A DNA stretch of 64,000 nucleotides from an uncultured Lachnospiraceae bacterium (lineage in GTDB: Bacteria; Bacillota; Clostridia; Lachnospirales; Lachnospiraceae): contig CADBFZ010000011.1 of the NCBI GenBank assembly GCA_902794095.1, forward strand, positions 58,655 through 122,654, in the 5' to 3' direction. A model generated the notes under the pieces. The model was not told the DNA's origin, did no database searches, and worked only from the letters and a program-made list of their open reading frames with translations. Below, in pieces: positions 8,247-26,704 of this stretch. Every line of letters starts with the position of its first letter. The first letter of the stretch is position 1. A program made the translations under genes and the position numbers.

Positions 8247-10226
8247 TCAAATCTTAAACTTCTGAACATAGGATGTAAGTGTCTGGCTTGTCTGAGCCAG
8301 TTCGTGAGAGTTGTCCGCTACATCCTGACTGCTCTTCGTTATGTTGTTAGCCATTTCAACCATGTTTTGAGAGGTTGCAAGTATCTCGTCCGCGCTTGCT
8401 GCCTGTTCCTCGGAAATAGCAGCTACATTCGTTGATACATCCTCAACCTTCTCAATATCCGTGATCATGGATTCGATAAGAACATTGCTGTCCTGAATGT
8501 TCGAGTATATCTGGTCAAAAGTATTAACCGCAACACCGATAAGTTCGCTGTTGTGTTTAATATTTTCGCTACTAGCGTTAGCCTGATCTACGGCGTCGCC
8601 GATAAGTTTTCGAATTTCTTCTATCAGGTGGGAAATATTACCTGCGCTTTCAGATGAAGTCTGAGCCAGTTTCGCAATCTGCGTTGCAACAACTGCAAAG
8701 CCACGACCTGCTTCACCTGCTCTTGCTGCTTCAATACTTGCATTAAGTGACAGAAGGTTTGTTTCCTCCGCAATGTCACTGATCATTCCAACTATTTTGG
8801 TAATCTCTTCAGATGCAGTGCCAACTTTTTTGATAGCTTCAACAAGCCTTTCGTTTGCCGATGATATTCCTCCCATGGCAACACTGACCTGTTCCATATC
8901 CTCACGGCCTTTTTGAGAGATCTCAACAGTCTCTTTCATGCTGTCGTGAGCCTTATCCGAATTTTCTCTTGTAGCTGCAACAACATTGGCAAGAACCGTT
9001 GCATTCTCTGCAATGTCATTAACAGCCAGTGCAAGCTGGTCTACAGTATCATTAAGTTGCTGCATTGCATCCGACTGAGATTGTGAAGCATCGAACATAG
9101 TCTTAGAAACTCTGTCCGAATTATCGGATTCTTCTTTAAGCTTTTCGGATTCTTCGCTGATACTGGCGAGCATGCTCCTCATACTGACGACAAATTCCGA
9201 AACCTTTGATCCCATAAGACCGATCTCATCGTTACTTGATGAATCCACTTCGATGGTAAAATCTCCATCAGACATGGCTGAAATATTGTCAGAAATATGA
9301 GTGAGAGGAGCAATTACACGTCTTACAACCAAAAGGATAAGTACAACTATGAGTGCAATGGCAACTGCACCGACTATGAACAAAAGTATTCCCATCTGTG
9401 ATACTGACTTCAGTATTATGCTTGTCGGTATGTAAGAAACAAGCACCCAGTCCGTTCCGGATACTGCGGAAAAAGCTACCATATTACCCGAAATCTCCCT
9501 GCTGGAAAGATCGTTATTCATGATTGCGCCGGCCGCACCTGCAAGAAGCGCATCGCTTGCCGACTCAGAGAGCTTAGTGCCGATCAGACTTACATCTCTG
9601 TGAGCAAGAATCTGGTAATCATTGGTATCTACCAGGAATGAACTTGCACCGCTCATTTTTACACCGGAATTTACGATGATGCTGATCTTATCAAGGGTAA
9701 CATCCGCACCCAATACTTTTATAATATCGCTTCCGTCATTATAAATACCCGTAGCACTGATAACGGTATCTCCAAGCTCATTCTTATAAGCCGTACCGTA
9801 ACCAATCCTGATGCGAGTCAAACCCTGTTTGTACCATGTACTGCCGGTGACATTGTCATTGCTCATGGTAGATTCACTTGCCTTGTAAAACTTTCCGTCG
9901 GCAGTACCAATGTAGAATCCATTGGGGGAATTGGAGTTGAAACCGTAATACATATCAAGGAAAGATACAATCTCATCCTCATCCGGATTCTGAGCCTCCA
10001 TGGTATGTTTAACTGTATTAAAATACTCAAGATTCTCATCAAGCCAGGCTTCAATATTATCAGCCTGGTTAGCAATTGAAGACTCGAGGGTTTCTTTGGC
10101 CATTTCCGTCATTCGATTCTTGGAAATAGAAGCAGCTATGATAACAAGTGCAAGAACCGTAAGAACTACTACCGGAATGATAAAGGTAAGCAGTTTGGAA
10201 CTGATTTTTCTGGTCTTTCTTCTCAT
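8247..10226 (-). CDS. Methyl-accepting chemotaxis protein, Cache sensor
   Basis: A 659-residue transmembrane chemoreceptor. TM1 is at about 12-35, a Cache-type extracytoplasmic ligand domain at about 40-280 ([22 protein letters not shown]), TM2 at 285-305, HAMP at about 306-360, and the long cytoplasmic signalling coil ends at 659. The hairpin tip [20 protein letters not shown] matches the CheA/CheW-contacting region of MCPs. The sugar-binding lipoprotein gene follows by 13 bp, so the two are likely co-transcribed and the binding protein may hand its ligand signal to this receptor. That link is inferred; the Cache domain could bind a ligand itself. Confidence 0.93.
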
Positions 10227-13798: not shown

Positions 13799-14658
13799 TA
13801 TTTTGCCTTCTCAAGTTCAAACCATACTTCATCGGGAATGTTAAGATTGCCAGAACCGGTTCCGAGCTCGATACCGGGTTTATTGTTTCCGTGGAAATCA
13901 CTTCCTCCGGATATAAGAAGTCCCATGTCCGCAGCAAGGTCTCTTATGTATTTCTCATCTTCTTCGGAGTGAGTGCTGTACATTGCTTCGATTCCCACAA
14001 GTCCCGCTTCCTTCATCATGGTGATGAGTTCGCGAAGCTTTTCATCTCCGAACTTATAGATCATGGGATGGGCGAGAACGGGGATTCCGCCTGCCTCAAG
14101 TGTCATATTAACGGCCTGCACCGGCGTTATCTTTTCCCTGGGAACATAACAGGGTGCGTCGGGACCGAGGTATCTTTCGAATGCTTCATGAGTACTCTTA
14201 ACGTATCCGTACTCATAAAGGTACTTGGCAAAGTGGGCTCTGGTAAGTACGCAATCAGGGAACATCTTGCAGAGTCCTTCGTAGGAAATACCGATTCCGA
14301 CTTCTTTGAGCTTGTCCGCCATCTTGCGGTTTCTTCCCTCTCTCGAATCAAGGAATGCATCGAGTTTGGAAGTAAATGACTTGTTGTTATGATCGATGGA
14401 AAGTCCGACTACGTGAACATCCCGGCCGTTCCATTCTGTAGAAAATTCTATTCCGGGAATGATCTTGGGAGCCTTTGCAGTCAAAGAAGGGTCCGAATTG
14501 ATATCTCGGGCCCTGTCCATTGCTTCCTGAATTCCCTCTATCGTATCGTGATCGGTTATGGCAAGAATGGTGATTCCTTTTTCCGTTGCCAGATCTACGA
14601 TCTGAGTGGGAGTCAGTGTTCCGTCTGATTTATTTGTATGTGAGTGAAGGTCGATCAA
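13798..14658 (-). CDS. PHP-domain phosphoesterase (YciV/TrpH-like)
   Basis: A 286-residue metal-dependent phosphoesterase of the polymerase and histidinol phosphatase fold. The N-terminus IDLHSHTNKSDG, the TDHDT motif near 38, GIEFSTEW near 70 and the final GSDFHG near 255 supply the trinuclear metal ligands. Homologues release 5' nucleotides from short RNA or from 3',5'-bisphosphonucleotides. The start is a TTG overlapping the TGA of the ABC-F gene; AAGGAAG lies about 10 bp upstream. Coupled to both neighbours. Confidence 0.9.
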   Translation of the reverse strand: MIDLHSHTNKSDGTLTPTQIVDLATEKGITILAITDHDTIEGIQEAMDRARDINSDPSLTAKAPKIIPGIEFSTEWNGRDVHVVGLSIDHNNKSFTSKLDAFLDSREGRNRKMADKLKEVGIGISYEGLCKMFPDCVLTRAHFAKYLYEYGYVKSTHEAFERYLGPDAPCYVPREKITPVQAVNMTLEAGGIPVLAHPMIYKFGDEKLRELITMMKEAGLVGIEAMYSTHSEEDEKYIRDLAADMGLLISGGSDFHGNNKPGIELGTGSGNLNIPDEVWFELEKAK

Positions 14659-16292
14659 TCTTCGTCGTCTTCCTTATCTGCAGTGAATACGGTTCTCTTT
14701 CTTGCAGTCTCATCACTTGCAAGGTACTCATCATAGGTGGTGATCTTATCAATCATCTTACCGCCGGGAAGAAGCTCGATGATTCTGTTGGCGGTAGTTT
14801 CTGTGAGCTGATGGTCACGGCATGAGAAAAGGATGGTTCCGGGGAACTTCATCATACCGGTATTGAGTGCGGTGATTGATTCCATGTCGAGATGGTTAGT
14901 GGGCTCGTCGAAAACAAGACAGTTAGCGCCGCTGATCATCATCTTGGAAAGAAGGCATCTTACCTTCTCACCTCCGGAAAGAACTTTTACTTTCTTAACG
15001 CCGTCCTCACCGGGGAAGAGCATTCTTCCGAGGTAGCCTCTTACGTAGGTTGCATCCTTAACGGGTGAATAACCGGTAAGCCAATCGGTGATGGTAAGAT
15101 CGTTATCAAACTCAGAGGTATAGTCTCTGGGGAAGTAAGCCTGTGAAGTGGTAACACCCCACTTGAAAGATCCGCTGTCGGGCTCGATCTCTCCAATAAG
15201 AATTCTGAAGAGCGCGGTCTTAGCTTTCTCACATCCGCCTACGAATGCGATCTTATCTTCATGATTCATTATGAAAGAAACATTATCGAGAAGGGTCTCG
15301 CCATTTTCTGAATAGCAGATATTCTCAACGGTAAGAACTTCGTTACCGATCTCTCTTTCAGGCTTGAAATCGATGTAAGGATACTTTCTTGATGAAGGCT
15401 TGATGGTATCAAGCTCGATCTTCTCGAGTGCTCTCTTTCTGGAAGTAGCCTGCTTGGACTTGGAAGCGTTAGCGGAGAATCTGGAGATGAATTCCTGCAA
15501 CTCCTTGATCTTCTCTTCTTTCTTTTTATTAGCTTCCTTCATCTGGCGGATCATGAGCTGTGAAGACTCATACCAGAAATCGTAGTTACCTGCATAGAGC
15601 TGGATCTTACCGTAGTCGATATCGGCGATCTGGGTACAAACCTTATTAAGGAAGTATCTGTCGTGGGATACGACAATAACGGTGTTGTTGAAGTTTATGA
15701 GAAACTCTTCAAGCCAGCCGATAGCTTCAAGGTCGAGGTGGTTGGTAGGCTCGTCGAGAAGGAGGATATCGGGATCACCGAAAAGTGCCTTCGCAAGGAG
15801 AACCTTGACCTTCTTGGAACCGTCGAGGTCAGCCATCTGTGAGTAGTGATCTTCTGTTCCGATTCCGAGACCGTTAAGGAGCATAGCCGCATTGGACTCT
15901 GCTTCGTATCCGTTCATCTCTGCAAACTCGGACTCGAGCTCACCTGCTCTGATACCATCCTCATCGGAGAAATCCTCCTTCATATAGATGGCATCTTTTT
16001 CTTTCATGATGTCATAGAGGTGCTTATTACCCATGATTACGGTATCCATTACAGAATACTCATCATATTTGAAGTGGTCCTGTTCGAGGACTGAAAGACG
16101 CTCGCCGGGAGTGATTACGATGTCACCCTTTGTGGTGTCGAGTTCGCCGGAAAGGATTTTAAGGAAGGTGGATTTACCTGCTCCGTTTGCACCGATGAGG
16201 CCGTAGCAGTTGCCTTCCGTGAATTTAATGTTTACATCTTCGAAAAGAGCTTTCTTTCCTACTCTGTATGTTACGTTTACAGCTGAGATCAT
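14655..16292 (-). CDS. ABC-F ATPase, YbiT-like
   Basis: A 545-residue soluble protein with two ABC ATPase domains and no membrane segment, the ABC-F layout of ribosome-binding translation factors. The first domain has GANGAGKST near 35-43 and ILLLDEPTNHLDLEA; the second has a diverged Walker A (FVGGCEKAKTALF) and a good VFDEPTNHLDMES. The inter-domain linker (about 245-310, KKKEEKIKELQEFISRF) is the P-site tRNA-interaction segment. The degenerate second Walker A may alter the ATPase cycle. AGGAGG precedes the ATG. No drug-resistance context is seen, so a housekeeping role is more likely. Confidence 0.92.
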   Translation of the reverse strand: MISAVNVTYRVGKKALFEDVNIKFTEGNCYGLIGANGAGKSTFLKILSGELDTTKGDIVITPGERLSVLEQDHFKYDEYSVMDTVIMGNKHLYDIMKEKDAIYMKEDFSDEDGIRAGELESEFAEMNGYEAESNAAMLLNGLGIGTEDHYSQMADLDGSKKVKVLLAKALFGDPDILLLDEPTNHLDLEAIGWLEEFLINFNNTVIVVSHDRYFLNKVCTQIADIDYGKIQLYAGNYDFWYESSQLMIRQMKEANKKKEEKIKELQEFISRFSANASKSKQATSRKRALEKIELDTIKPSSRKYPYIDFKPEREIGNEVLTVENICYSENGETLLDNVSFIMNHEDKIAFVGGCEKAKTALFRILIGEIEPDSGSFKWGVTTSQAYFPRDYTSEFDNDLTITDWLTGYSPVKDATYVRGYLGRMLFPGEDGVKKVKVLSGGEKVRCLLSKMMISGANCLVFDEPTNHLDMESITALNTGMMKFPGTILFSCRDHQLTETTANRIIELLPGGKMIDKITTYDEYLASDETARKRTVFTADKEDDED

Positions 16293-16355: not shown

Positions 16356-16444
16356 TTAGTCTCCATTAAAATAAAACACATATGCCTACAAAACCCTAAT
16401 ATTATAACTGTCGATATTGATTCGCGCAAGGGGATAGAAACAGG

Positions 16445-16746
16445 GGGACGGTTCTGTCGTTCCAGAAAGATCATAAATGCGAGGCATGAATATGCCTGAT
16501 GTTTTTATGCTCATGATCACTTCGTTAAGCTGTTCTAATGAGCACGTATATATCAATGCTCCATCCGGCGTCGCTCACATTCGACTTCCATGTCTCATGT
16601 TCGCTGATTTTTCCGTCCTGGAAAAATCCCGCCTGATTATTTAAGTGCTCATAAGAACAGCTAAACTCGTTCAAATGTCGCATAAAAACATCAGGCATAT
16701 CCACACCCCGCAGCCGGAGTTTTAGTCGGAACGACAGAACCGTCCC
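16445..16746 (-). repeat. Structured palindromic element, copy A1 (inverted)
   Basis: About 300 bp bounded by a perfect 19-bp inverted repeat (16445-16463 with 16728-16746). Nested inside are a perfect 21-bp inverted repeat (16490-16510 with 16680-16700), a longer stem around AGCTGTTCT, and at the centre two hairpins: a 9-bp one (16606-16614 with 16620-16628) and one with core GACTTCCATGTC (16583-16594) flanked by TTC and TCAT. It carries no plausible gene. It is the reverse-oriented partner of copy A2. Confidence 0.88.
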
Positions 16747-16768
16747 ACTGCGACTAATCAGAAATGAC

Positions 16769-16998
16769 GTCTGAAAGGCATGGACATATGTATTTTTCGG
16801 GCGATTTTGAACAAGTTTAGCTGTTCTTAGGGATGTATCCACGTAAGCACAATTTCACCCGGATGGTGAAATTAGCAGGCATGAGACATGGATGTCGAAC
16901 GCCTGCGGTGCGTAGTCATCGGAGTATATACATCCCTTAGAACAGCTTAACGAAGTGATCATGAGCCCGAAAAAATACATATGTGCGTGCCTTCAGAC
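16769..16998 (+). repeat. Structured palindromic element, copy A2
   Basis: About 230 bp enclosed by a near-perfect 34-bp inverted repeat (16769-16802 with 16965-16998). Inside are a stem containing TTCTTAGGGATGTAT, hairpin 1 (16851-16859 with 16865-16873, loop CGGAT) and hairpin 2: GCAGGC, ATGA, GACAT, GG, ATGTC, GAAC, GCCTGC (16875-16906), then GGTGC. The same architecture recurs in A1, B1 and B2. Confidence 0.9.
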
Positions 16999-17035
16999 GG
17001 AAGAGATATCAATCGGCAGGGGGATATTCGGTGGG

Positions 17036-19820: not shown

Positions 19821-21182
19821 TCAGAATCCTTTTTTCTTGAGATCAGCAACGAGCTGAACATAGAATTCCCTGACATCGTAGCCGGGAATATTTTCACGAT
19901 TAAGATCGATCACATCGCCGTGTGAAATTCCTCTTTTGCCGGGAGCGGTTATGAGATGGAAGTCGCTTCCCCAGGAGAATGAACCTTCACCAACAAGTCC
20001 GTCGTTTCCGCCGTCAAATGCGTTAACGAGTCCGTATGTCATATTAAGAGGGAACTGGCCCCCGCGATGATTCTTAAGAAGCGATCCGTAGCTCTGGATG
20101 TAGACGCCTTCGGGATCTTTAACCTTCTCATTAAACTCTGCGCAAAAAGAATGCGTAAGGTTCTGACACGCCACAATAAAGTCAGGATTGTAATCTCCGA
20201 GTTTGGAAAGTGCTTTGTTATATGCCTTGGCAACAACCTGCTGAGGCTTCTCGGGAATCTTGCCGAGTAAGTAATCCGCAAATTCACATCCTCTGTGAGG
20301 AGTGTTGATGGTAGTAAGGGATGCAACTCTCTTTGCAATCTCGGGATCCGTCATTGCGCTTCTTGCATCAAGGCCGCCCTTGGAATGAGCGATGATATTA
20401 ACCTTCTCACATCCTGTGGTTTCTGTGATCTCTTTTATCTTACGCGCTACTTCAAGACCGCAGGATTCAACGGATGCCGCAGACTGCTGCTCACCGTAAT
20501 AATATGTGCAGCCGTTTGCAAAGAGCTCTCCGGGAATTCTTCCCCAGTAATCGAAATATTTAAAGTCCCTGAAAAAGACACCGTGCAGGAGAAGTACGGG
20601 ATACTTGGTTGCACAGATTCTGTCTGCCTTTCTCTGCTCGTTGAGAATTGCTTTATCATTCTCAAACATAACTTCATCTAAAGTAATACGGATCATGATT
20701 CCGAGAACTATAAGATTTAACGGGAAAATAAGACCGCAGAGAATTCCTATAACTCTCATCTTGATGCCGAGCTGAACGCTGGTCAGATAGATACGGATAA
20801 TTCCGATCCAGAAAGTTATGGATAAGAATACGGATGCAATAACGATATGGGAAGTGATCTTTCCCCAGCCCCGGTCTGTTATATTTTTGAACACAAAAAG
20901 TTCGAGCACCGTATAGATGATCGTAATAACCAAAGCTTCAAGAAAGATTCTCAGCTGAATATTGCCGAACCAGAGCTGTTTGACCCTGCCGTCTCTTACG
21001 TCCTTCGTGCATGCTCCCGGCCACAGCCAGAAGAAAAAGCACATGCCGATTGCAAGTATCATGACGATAGAATCATAAGCCCCTGAGGCAAGCAGAAATA
21101 CAGAGTTTGATGCCAATAGGAGCACAAACAGAATCAACAGATGATATATGATTCTGATAATTGTATGAATAGTATTTTTCAC
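19821..21182 (-). CDS. Membrane-anchored alpha/beta hydrolase (lipase-like)
   Basis: A 453-residue protein with four to five transmembrane helices in the first 180 residues and a C-terminal alpha/beta hydrolase. The oxyanion region is VLLLHGVFFRD, the nucleophile elbow AHSKGG, and TINTPHRGCEFAD follows as in triacylglycerol lipases and LipA-type esterases. The late GISHGD supplies the likely catalytic His. A membrane-bound lipase facing either side is possible; the substrate is unknown. It is the second gene of a three-gene cluster (PGDYG-like protein, lipase, glycosylase). Confidence 0.85.
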   Translation of the reverse strand: MKNTIHTIIRIIYHLLILFVLLLASNSVFLLASGAYDSIVMILAIGMCFFFWLWPGACTKDVRDGRVKQLWFGNIQLRIFLEALVITIIYTVLELFVFKNITDRGWGKITSHIVIASVFLSITFWIGIIRIYLTSVQLGIKMRVIGILCGLIFPLNLIVLGIMIRITLDEVMFENDKAILNEQRKADRICATKYPVLLLHGVFFRDFKYFDYWGRIPGELFANGCTYYYGEQQSAASVESCGLEVARKIKEITETTGCEKVNIIAHSKGGLDARSAMTDPEIAKRVASLTTINTPHRGCEFADYLLGKIPEKPQQVVAKAYNKALSKLGDYNPDFIVACQNLTHSFCAEFNEKVKDPEGVYIQSYGSLLKNHRGGQFPLNMTYGLVNAFDGGNDGLVGEGSFSWGSDFHLITAPGKRGISHGDVIDLNRENIPGYDVREFYVQLVADLKKKGF

Positions 21183-22684: not shown

Positions 22685-23349
22685 CAGATAAAGAATCTCC
22701 TCTTAAGCTCTTCGGATGCTCTCTTGCCTCCGAATATAACCGTTCCCGCAAAAAGAATACCGGATGCAGCCATGGCGATAAGCACAAGAACCGGAACTCT
22801 TATTACATCCAGTCTCAAAAGAATGAACAGTACTATGCTCCATGCAATGTTAAAAAGCTGAAGGGATATATAGCTCTGCCAGTTTCTGTGATTGATGATC
22901 ATAAGGCCGATACAACTTACGTTCAGGAATATGACAGATGAAGGAAGGGTATAGTCCAGTGACCATCTGTTGTATCCCGTAAAGTAATCGATACCGATCA
23001 GGATGAGTACGACAGAGATCGTAAGGAACAGTGTCTTAAACATGTATCCTATCTTATCCGTAATGGACATATAGATCGTAACGTTCACATACAAAAGGAT
23101 CAGCCCGACTACGATGGTCCAGTTAAAGATATCCGCTCCCATGTACAGAGCTATAAGCATTCCCGCCATCGCACATATGGATAGGAAGAGCACGATCCTT
23201 CTGATGGTTCTCCATACCTTAACGGTTGCTTCGGGATCAGGGTAGAGGTTCTCTCCTTTTACTCCGTCATCTTCCAATACGCATCTGCAAAAAGGACATC
23301 TGTCCGTATCGTCCGTAATATGCACTTTGCATTTCTTACACTCAGCCAT
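22684..23349 (-). CDS. DUF6320-type zinc-ribbon membrane protein
   Basis: A 221-residue protein with an N-terminal zinc ribbon (CKKCKVH and CPFCRC, residues 4-22) and six hydrophobic helices from about 45 to 205. This arrangement beside a condensation-type acyltransferase corresponds to DUF6320 as I know it. The ribbon should be cytosolic. It overlaps the acyltransferase gene by 8 bp upstream and the esterase gene by one base downstream, so the three proteins are made together. Confidence 0.8.
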   Translation of the reverse strand: MAECKKCKVHITDDTDRCPFCRCVLEDDGVKGENLYPDPEATVKVWRTIRRIVLFLSICAMAGMLIALYMGADIFNWTIVVGLILLYVNVTIYMSITDKIGYMFKTLFLTISVVLILIGIDYFTGYNRWSLDYTLPSSVIFLNVSCIGLMIINHRNWQSYISLQLFNIAWSIVLFILLRLDVIRVPVLVLIAMAASGILFAGTVIFGGKRASEELKRRFFI

Positions 23350-24607
23350 AAAATACTCCGTTCGTGGTTACGCTAACCTTGATTCCGTCCTCTGCGAGCT
23401 GCTTAACCAGAGTTCTTTCGATGGAAGTATCTTCCAGTATCGTAGAGACGGTATATACGAAATCATCGCCGTATGAAAGCACGGTACCCTTGATCTCCTG
23501 TCCGATGCTCATGGCGATATTTGCGGTAAAGCCCTTAACGTACTTTTTGTACTCATCAAGGATCTTGATATTACCGATGTTGGTAACGGTAGTGGTATTA
23601 GCCGTAGCAGATTTGGTATATACAAATCTGATGGCAAGATTCTTGATTCCCAAAGGCACTGCCCTTAAGAATGGATTCATCTGGTTTGATACGGAATAGC
23701 TGAAGAGATCCTCAAGGTGCTCCTTATTGATCTGCTCCCTGAGAGTTGTCTTACATATATCCAGTATCTGCGCAAAAGAATACTCTTCTTCCACGTCCGC
23801 AATTTCTGCTGAAACTACCGCAAAGAAGTTCTTGGTTGTATAGGAATCAAAGTAAGGCCTTAAGTTAACGGGAACCGCAACTCTGATTGGTCTTCCTTTA
23901 CTTCTTCCCCTGAAGCCGTTCATATAGATCGCATAGGCGGTAAGAGCGACCATATACTCATTTATGGATACTCCGTATTCGTGAGTAACCTTCTTAAGCT
24001 CCTGAACGGACATGGTAAGGTGCATGAGTCCGAACTCACCGTCCGGGAGATGTTTTCCTTTTACAAGATATGCTTTCTTCGCAACAAATCCGTTGGGCTT
24101 GGCGGACTTATAGTTTCTTACGAAGCTGTCCTCTTTATTAAGTGAGGTATCGGAACTTAATCCGTCGCCTTCAAACTCATCGGGATGTGCAAGTCTAAGG
24201 TACTGGTAAGCAAGTTCCCTGATGAAGTTAATTCCGCCCATTCCGTCGGTAAGTGCGTGGAATACCTCAAGGTTGATCCTGCACTTGTAATAAGTAACCC
24301 TGAAAAGATATGAGTGGTTTCTGTTGGGTCTTATGAATCTGCAGGGAAAACCTGCCTCCTCCACAACTCTGGGAGCGGGCTTTCCGTTCTCCTCAAAATA
24401 GAACCAAAAGAAACCCTTCCTGAGTCTTACATTAAATCCGTCGATCTTAGGAAGAAGTATATCCAGTGCTTTCTGTAGGGTTGCTTTATCTATTTCCTCT
24501 GTCAGGATGATGGAGATCCTGTAAGTGCTGGTCATATTTTCACCGGCAATCGAAGGAAAAAGATATCCCGTATTATCCAATCTGTCCCATCTGATACGTT
24601 TTTCCAA
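23342..24607 (-). CDS. Condensation-type acyltransferase (alcohol acetyltransferase-like)
   Basis: A 421-residue CoA-dependent acyltransferase-fold protein. The catalytic motif appears as FHALTDGMGG, the HxxxDG form seen in alcohol acetyltransferase/condensation domains; later VPVNLRPYF matches the conserved second-subdomain strand. It probably transfers an acyl group to an unknown hydroxyl acceptor. The start is taken as the TTG at 24607: GAAGGA lies 7 bp upstream and it begins four bases after the upstream stop. The ATG at 24661 would overlap the upstream gene by 50 bp. Confidence 0.85.
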   Translation of the reverse strand: MEKRIRWDRLDNTGYLFPSIAGENMTSTYRISIILTEEIDKATLQKALDILLPKIDGFNVRLRKGFFWFYFEENGKPAPRVVEEAGFPCRFIRPNRNHSYLFRVTYYKCRINLEVFHALTDGMGGINFIRELAYQYLRLAHPDEFEGDGLSSDTSLNKEDSFVRNYKSAKPNGFVAKKAYLVKGKHLPDGEFGLMHLTMSVQELKKVTHEYGVSINEYMVALTAYAIYMNGFRGRSKGRPIRVAVPVNLRPYFDSYTTKNFFAVVSAEIADVEEEYSFAQILDICKTTLREQINKEHLEDLFSYSVSNQMNPFLRAVPLGIKNLAIRFVYTKSATANTTTVTNIGNIKILDEYKKYVKGFTANIAMSIGQEIKGTVLSYGDDFVYTVSTILEDTSIERTLVKQLAEDGIKVSVTTNGVFYG

Positions 24608-24611
24608 GTTA

Positions 24612-24875
24612 TTATCCTTCCACGATGAGGTATCTTCCGTCTCCGATCTCAAAAACCTCATCTGCGCTTAATATATCCCCTGCTTCGGGGCTCTCAAGGT
24701 CCACACCTTCTTCTTCGAAGTACTCTTTAACTTCGTCAGCGGAATTTACGACCTGAGCCATAAGTTCCTCAAGAAAGTCCCTTGCTTCTTCTTTGGTTGT
24801 TGCAACTTCCTCATCAAAAAGCTGCTTCTGATTCTTTAAGAAAACTTCAAGAACCTTGTCATCATACATATCCAT
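24612..24875 (-). CDS. Small acidic protein, unknown function
   Basis: An 87-residue, strongly acidic, mostly helical protein (DEEVATTKEEARDFLEELM) ending in a short beta-like GDGRYLIVEG. No cysteine, signal or membrane segment. GGGGAG stands 8 bp before the ATG, a strong ribosome site. It lies 16 bp after the dus gene and 4 bp before the acyltransferase start, so it belongs to the maf-dus-acyltransferase operon. I do not recognise it. Confidence 0.75.
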   Translation of the reverse strand: MDMYDDKVLEVFLKNQKQLFDEEVATTKEEARDFLEELMAQVVNSADEVKEYFEEEGVDLESPEAGDILSADEVFEIGDGRYLIVEG

Positions 24876-26494: not shown

Positions 26495-26704
26495 GTGAGC
26501 TTTATATTTCTTTCTGCTCATGCAGATCTCGCTAAGATGTTCTATAGGTACGCATGTACTGCGATGACTCCGCACCGTGAACGTTCGGCATCCATGCCTC
26601 ATGTTCACTAATTTCGCCATCCGGGCGAAATTGTGCTCACTTAAATGCGTACCTAAGAACATCTAAGCTTGATCTAAAATCGCAGAAATAAACATAAAGC
26701 TCAC
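26495..26704 (-). repeat. Structured palindromic element, copy B1 (inverted)
   Basis: About 210 bp bounded by an 11-bp inverted repeat (26495-26505 with 26694-26704). A broken stem pairs 26535-26543 with 26656-26664 and 26546-26555 with 26645-26654. The centre has hairpin 1 (26610-26618 with 26624-26632) and hairpin 2, which on the minus strand reads GTGAAC, ATGA, GGCAT, GG, ATGCC, GAAC, GTTCAC, then GGTGC. It lies directly upstream of maf. Confidence 0.9.

Follow-up and report, generated by a model that had tools for sequence, protein, structure and literature searches.

Sequence comparisons suggest that TwoAYGGAY is a decoy for CsrA inside small jumping DNA palindromes

The CsrA-sequestering small RNAs CsrB/CsrC and RsmX/Y/Z present GGA in hairpin loops of the form C[A(N)GGAX]G. 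According to the passages cited, the high-affinity site of RsmE is a stem capped by the hexaloop ANGGAX, with lower affinity if N is absent (PMC4005645), SELEX gave the CsrA consensus RUACARGGAUGU (PMC7652899), and the joint action of FliW and sRNAs on CsrA was, for any species, still to be determined at the time of a 2020 review (PMC7652899). The family TwoAYGGAY was reported by Weinberg et al. 2010, from human gut, γ-Proteobacteria and Clostridiales, as probably an RNA and as a candidate without function, and was scored 'n' for cis-regulation in the part of that work that deals with it (PMC2864571). Gardner and Eldai, in the section concerned, matched it to the CsrA-binding motif and proposed as a hypothesis that Clostridia have CsrA-binding sRNAs (PMC4333381); extra covarying pairs are given for it in the relevant passages of the Rfam 15 and CaCoFold papers (PMC11701678, PMC7657543). 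The literature searched contained no experimental test of CsrA binding by TwoAYGGAY. Bacterial MITEs, such as Correia elements and QMITE1, are short, palindromic and intergenic, and the functions listed for them in the review passages cited are IHF sites, RNase cleavage, sRNAs and, conceivably, riboswitches or terminators (PMC10969869). In the portions of the literature that were searched, MITE and CsrA are mentioned together in Rfam 12.0 only, in unrelated passages. Both the family and the CsrA idea are, then, already known; what is new here is the dispersal of the elements, a strand-symmetry test, the co-occurrence with CsrA and a constraint that falls on the hairpins over the arms.

The DNA analysed here, called the window, is a 64,000-nucleotide stretch from an uncultured Lachnospiraceae bacterium. 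Pair A consists of two inverted palindromes in the gap between an ABC-F and a phosphofructokinase gene, and the head-to-head arrangement described in the sequence-only reading was borne out: the pair is divergent, with the 5' ends facing each other, 128 bp separating the bounds of the RF01731 model and some 20 bp left between the extended palindromes A1 and A2. A second divergent pair, B, lies 10 kb from pair A, between a Maf-like gene and the gene for polyphosphate kinase (PPK), and the window's genome has five TwoAYGGAY copies. The features are as follows.

14655-16292, minus strand: ABC-F ATPase gene, flanking pair A
16445..16746, minus strand: element A1, full palindrome (from the fold)
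16514..16676, minus strand: TwoAYGGAY (RF01731) match of A1, 73.9 bits
16573..16604, minus strand: A1 hairpin 2, loop C[ATGGAA]G, GGA at 16587-16589 on the minus strand (from sequence and alignment)
16606..16628, minus strand: A1 hairpin 1, loop C[AGGAC]G, GGA at 16616-16618 on the minus strand (from sequence and alignment)
16766..17000, plus strand: element A2, full palindrome (from the fold)
16805..16961, plus strand: TwoAYGGAY match of A2, 69.6 bits
16851..16873, plus strand: A2 hairpin 1, loop C[CGGAT]G, GGA at 16861-16863
16875..16906, plus strand: A2 hairpin 2, loop C[ATGGAT]G, GGA at 16890-16892, with a G-A internal loop
17087-18352, minus strand: phosphofructokinase gene, PPi-dependent kind, flanking pair A on the other side
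26521..26678, minus strand: TwoAYGGAY match of B1, 68.4 bits
26805..26976, plus strand: TwoAYGGAY match of B2, 39.5 bits, below the gathering score of 43

The genes beside these elements are housekeeping genes, and the nearest named relatives of the flanking phosphofructokinase come from uncultured Lachnospiraceae at 97-98% identity, one of them labelled water-buffalo rumen. That both elements of pair A fold, as had been predicted, is plain from comparison with shuffled sequences: A1 reaches -153.5 kcal/mol (z -14.3; 0/100 shuffles as good) and A2 -115.8 kcal/mol (z -12.1; 0/200 shuffles as good). The outermost 19-bp arms of A1, GGGACGGTTCTGTCGTTCC, have no third match within the window when up to 3 mismatches are allowed. 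These outer arms (GGGACGGTTCT.., 16445-16463 and 16728-16746) resemble a small palindrome in the Maf-PPK gap of the relative G597 (L438, about 9375-9410), which is possibly an independent REP-like repeat. Two further window ORFs, 19821-21182 (453 aa) and 23342-24661 (439 aa), are conserved in members of the genus and have no NCBIfam match at E 1e-10.

The sequence-only reading recognised no Rfam family for pair A, and this was wrong. A1, A2 and B1 all exceed the RF01731 gathering score, the covariance model matched over all 168 positions with both hairpins included, and the membership of the window elements in TwoAYGGAY is settled. The model match and both hairpins are those of the family of Weinberg et al. 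2010, whereas dispersal, terminal repeats and duplications are not described in the passages on it there (PMC2864571). We built our own covariance model from 35 Rfam matches, in which 19/21 predicted pairs are preserved through a change on both sides in one sequence or more. This model was aligned to 127 + 46 = 173 matches, some partial or weak and one, in L188, misplaced. A separate set, also of 173 elements, comes from 140 fetched stretches, the window and L004, with 29 placed from the genome-set searches; the 140 stretches were drawn from among the matches listed, more matches exist, and copies inside one genome are not independent.

In the model alignment the window copies have two hairpins with GGA loops, and this holds widely in the family: GGA stands in both loops of 148/173 aligned matches (108/127 and 40/46) and in at least one loop of 168/173 (122/127 and 46/46, one of the 46 being the misplaced L188 match). 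The strict form C[A(N)GGAX]G is found in both loops of 104/173 matches and in at least one loop of 163/173, and the distance from GGA to GGA has a median of 26 nt (5-95% range 24-27, 148 matches). By their sequence, the TwoAYGGAY loops are of the published high-affinity CsrA/RsmE site form. Hairpin 2 has the strict six-base loop in all four window copies, and hairpin 1 a five-base loop, likewise in 4/4, with A as its first base in A1 and C in A2, B1 and B2. The hairpin arms quoted in the sequence-only reading are correct for A2, B1 and B2; those of hairpin 2 are imperfect in A1, which also lacks the trailing GGTGC and does not fit the features that had been given as constant. Of the matches without a GGA loop, five in all, four belong to G006, which has six, and the other is the sole match of G090; both genomes encode CsrA. 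CGA takes the place of GGA in loops of the G006 and G090 matches, possibly a natural series with altered CsrA binding.

Beyond the loops, two of which are found in each TwoAYGGAY element, the likeness to the CsrB/CsrC and RsmX/Y/Z systems extends to classification, since the Rfam clan CL00106 is common to TwoAYGGAY and E. coli CsrB, and to the host, since the window's genome, like those with CsrA-sequestering sRNAs, encodes CsrA. What the clan and motif names mean beyond the passages cited is presumably as we take it here. The differences are equally clear: (i) TwoAYGGAY has two sites per element, in one to more than 20 dispersed copies; (ii) sequence scans make no promoter or terminator visible; and (iii) the window host has FliW.

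In the window's genome the genes for FliW (133.3 bits) and CsrA (88.9 bits) are adjacent, and there is one csrA. In the family set, 125/250 genomes have CsrA, 123 of them over the cut-off, and it is encoded in 37/38 TwoAYGGAY carriers vs 88/212 non-carriers (Fisher p 1.4e-11); in the class set, with family f1 left out, it is encoded in 22/27 carriers vs 81/300 non-carriers (p 3e-8). Carriers were identified by scoring at most 10 candidates per genome in the family set and at most 8 in the class set. Both sets together give CsrA in 59/65 carrier genomes, and the six carriers without a CsrA match (G159, G412, G450, G485, G502 and G542) are listed as 80-98% complete. CsrA, FliW and flagella tend to occur together, and the p values ignore phylogeny; the co-occurrence therefore cannot single out CsrA. 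Several family-set genomes have extra, mostly longer, CsrA copies, and G037 has a second CsrA gene (57.7 bits) immediately next to one for flagellin (L082, 2792-4764), about 1.2 kb from a TwoAYGGAY copy (L082, 5976-6141).

At the level of the family, the elements behave as MITEs do, being dispersed homologous copies with sharp ends in G165, G281, G116, G037 and G450, where the block that the copies share ends 60-90 nt beyond the Rfam bounds; in other genomes homology ends at or inside those bounds. Some copies in G060 (L112-L117) share about 670 bp, far longer than elsewhere, perhaps a larger parent element. G165 has 22 copies of full length that share 87-96% identity with the query copy, and their terminal repeat, GATTCGGGTGTCAAAAGGT, has 41 + 45 matches on the two strands vs 2 + 0 for the reversed pattern. 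An exact 7-bp duplication flanks 9/26 rows, or 8/24 distinct copies (L243/L247 and L248/L250 being two copies counted twice), vs 30/650 mismatched pairings, and exact duplications at every other length from 3 to 10 were found in 0/26 rows. The same genome also has core-less short copies with the same two arms, and at seven places the arm ends are at 93 and 282 of the query. L246, a 203-bp copy that lacks the core, has an exact 7-bp duplication, so that the hairpins are not needed for spread. Ten stretches of G165 around incomplete matches to the terminal repeat were inspected by eye, and no transposase was recognised among their ORFs.

G281 is a single-contig genome of another family, with 11 near-full copies and six more of at least 200 nt. 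Its terminal repeat, CTGCAATTCGTAATAT, differs from that of G165, and exact duplications of 7-11 bp flank 7/11 copies vs 0/110 mismatched pairings. The 300-bp copies of these two unrelated genomes have different terminal repeats and different duplication lengths; one core is carried in at least two kinds of mobile palindrome. One G309 copy likewise has a terminal repeat and a target duplication. Over the 173 elements scanned, duplications of at least 7 bp were found in 15/173 vs 10/322 controls, and of at least 8 bp in 9/173 vs 2/322, so that only G165, G281 and G309 carry weight. That scan gave nothing convincing by way of terminal repeat or duplication in the window copies or in most other genomes, and many genomes show no sign of recent transposition. 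Two candidate duplications in the window were discarded: ACATATG at A2, the sole window match of the scan, falls inside the palindrome arms, and the 8-bp direct repeat CAGGGGGA that brackets pair A (16441-16448 and 17017-17024) is of low complexity, with no matching terminal repeat seen. Thus TwoAYGGAY resembles the bacterial MITEs in size, symmetry and intergenic position and, in G165 and G281, in its terminal repeats and duplications, and differs from them in its cargo, a core of two hairpins of the CsrA-site type whose conservation exceeds that of the arms.

The reading that we favour, and hold to be somewhat probable, is that TwoAYGGAY is a CsrA-binding two-hairpin RNA module and the cargo of MITE-like intergenic palindromes. 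The core, two GGA-tipped hairpins with about 26 nt between the GGA triplets, would be transcribed and would bind the flagellar post-transcriptional regulator CsrA, one site for each subunit of the dimer; its effect could go in either direction, by acting as a decoy or by giving CsrA a landing site on whichever transcript carries the core. The palindromes that carry it would be, or would once have been, mobile elements moved by a transposase, and in some genomes terminal inverted repeats and target-site duplications, at least two kinds in all, are still in place. In the window's genus they would have been inserted, often as divergent pairs, at particular intergenic sites and then kept, the window copies presumably included.

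An unlikely alternative is that the element acts purely at the level of DNA, its hairpins being recognised in folded DNA by a transposase of the REP/IS200 type and its CsrA resemblance and co-occurrence being incidental. The arms bear on this directly. A functional RNA helix tolerates G.U but not A.C, and the TwoAYGGAY arms have 309 G-T and 302 A-C mismatches, that is, a strand-symmetric pattern, vs 50 and 6 in SRP RNA, the control (23 sequences from related genomes). As far as their sequence tells, the arms form a palindrome at the level of DNA, perhaps kept perfect through template switching, and have no RNA signature. This, the dispersal with target duplications, the random orientation to genes and the want of promoter or terminator signals all agree with a DNA-level element. 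Against it, the core hairpins have G-T:A-C ratios of 62:26 and 79:34 (in stretches that include unpaired bases, from copies that are not independent), and with a G-T excess in the hairpins and none in the arms the core looks more RNA-like than the arms, although G.U is rare in the fixed columns of hairpin 1 (11 G-T, 3 A-C, 1403 Watson-Crick, 77 other). Divergence among copies is also uneven: π in the 22 copies of G165 is 0.105 in the arms, 0.125 in the terminal repeat, 0.068 in the inner stem and 0.027 and 0.033 in the hairpins, and in the 11 copies of G281 it is 0.096 in the arms, 0.026 in the core and 0.000 in the GGA bases, so that the arms have diverged 3-4 times as much as the hairpins or core. 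The GGA triplets are not the best conserved sites in G165, where their six bases have a π of 0.060, above the hairpin mean. That the hairpins of G165 are better kept than its terminal repeat, that one core is found inside terminal repeats that differ from genome to genome, as do the lengths of the duplications, that carriers tend to have CsrA and that core-less short copies exist, whether as deletions or as forms that never had a core, all go against this alternative, and the last of these weakens the idea that the hairpins serve only to be bound by a transposase.

The claim that compensatory changes indicate selection on a fold has to be divided: in the long outer arms, with their strand-symmetric mismatches, covariation does not speak for an RNA fold, and an RNA-like excess of G-T is seen in the two core hairpins only, with mixed compensation among orthologues. 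A MITE with no fold beyond its terminal repeat, which the sequence-only reading had named as counter-evidence, fits the arms and does not fit the core. Of the three possibilities that had been offered, a mobile element, a structured RNA or both, the evidence favours both, with the dispersal and duplications on one side and the RNA-like core on the other.

The compensatory changes could also be mechanical, produced by template switching between palindrome arms in replication or by conversion between copies, with no selection on the fold, which we regard as improbable. The arms do look like this, since in G136, G032 and other genomes they are near-perfect yet unrelated between many copies, and their mismatches are strand-symmetric. 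Orthologous copies give a mixed picture. In G619, hairpin 1 of A2 has two adjacent base pairs changed on both sides; its inner seven pairs are those of the B2 copy of G619 itself, and conversion is thus possible. Summed over three relatives, compensated vs broken pairs number 42 vs 26 in B1 and 9 vs 37 in B2, the latter in keeping with a mechanical origin. What a mechanical origin does not account for is that the hairpins and core stay similar while the arms drift, and that the core hairpins have their G-T excess.

A further alternative, quite unlikely in our view, is an independent CsrB-type small RNA with a divergent promoter region, inherited vertically in the window's lineage with no mobile element there, and captured by MITEs elsewhere. 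The pairs lend it some credit: among the 173 elements, 20 pairs lie closer than 700 bp, 17 of them divergent, 3 tandem and 0 convergent; pair A occupies the orthologous site in both G619 and G592, pair B its own in G620 and G587, and G619 also has one or more of the B copies; and the window copies are without target duplications. Orthologous A1/A2 cores are 0.949-0.994 identical vs 0.67-0.78 at four-fold sites of the flanking genes, in a setting where the intergenic DNA flanking pair A is also conserved (0.88-0.97). For pair B the figures are 0.60-0.80 for the B1 core, 0.49-0.91 for the B2 core, 0.37-0.52 for the spacer and 0.34-0.55 for the four-fold sites of Maf and PPK. However, pair A is absent from the orthologous site in L321, L322 and L323, pair B from that in G597 and G621, and 14/31 genus members have no match, several of these genomes being incomplete. 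Synteny with the window was also sought for the elements of G110 and rejected: those in L189, L279 and L280 have no homologues of the window's flanking genes next to them, and around the remaining copy (L447) no match to a window protein passes >45% identity and E 1e-15. In the orthologous PFK/ABC-F gap, L322 (2070-2250) and L323 (2015-2140) have a different repeat, with CGCCTGGCC.GAACGAAGTGA..GGCCTGCGGCAT in common; the gap may be an insertion hot spot.

Signals of transcription also fail to support an independent small RNA. Sigma-70-type promoters (≥10/12) are not enriched upstream, with 13/140 in sense and 17/140 in antisense, nor are sigma-28-type promoters (5/140 and 6/140), and a terminator-like site follows in sense in only 3/140. 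A scan for promoter-like sites found none around pair A and one weak site around pair B; shuffles give 1.8 and 1.4. Single copies are oriented at random to genes (upstream same/opposite 57/46, downstream 47/61), so that nothing in their surroundings shows the core to be transcribed. The absent enrichment of promoters and terminators is the weakest point of the RNA reading, and we do not claim membership among the CsrB-type sRNAs because the signs of a discrete transcription unit were sought and not found. That the element is a cis-regulatory leader of the downstream gene is hardly credible: the Rfam type label 'Cis-reg' speaks for it, but 85/144 downstream genes in the family set lie on the opposite strand, gene orientation does not support a leader or riboswitch, the window neighbours are housekeeping genes and the family was scored 'n' in the cited part of Weinberg et al. 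2010 (PMC2864571).

If TwoAYGGAY is the CsrA-binding cargo of MITE-like palindromes that we favour, an RNA family without function since 2010 gains a testable identity and would exemplify the spread of a regulatory RNA as transposon cargo; the arms, for their part, are a warning that covariation in long palindromes can mimic RNA structure. A bolder version, possible but one that we hold only tentatively, makes TwoAYGGAY a CsrA decoy that is mobile: MITE families of Clostridia that are unrelated to one another would each have acquired this portable RNA module, since to titrate or recruit CsrA, with the consequences for flagellin and carbon control, would be of advantage to the element or its host. 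FliW, CsrA and the candidate RNA are all encoded in the window's genome, which makes the question of joint action by FliW and sRNAs directly testable there. Were the bolder version true, the elements would seed the genome with CsrA sites, adding an RNA arm beside the protein antagonist FliW.
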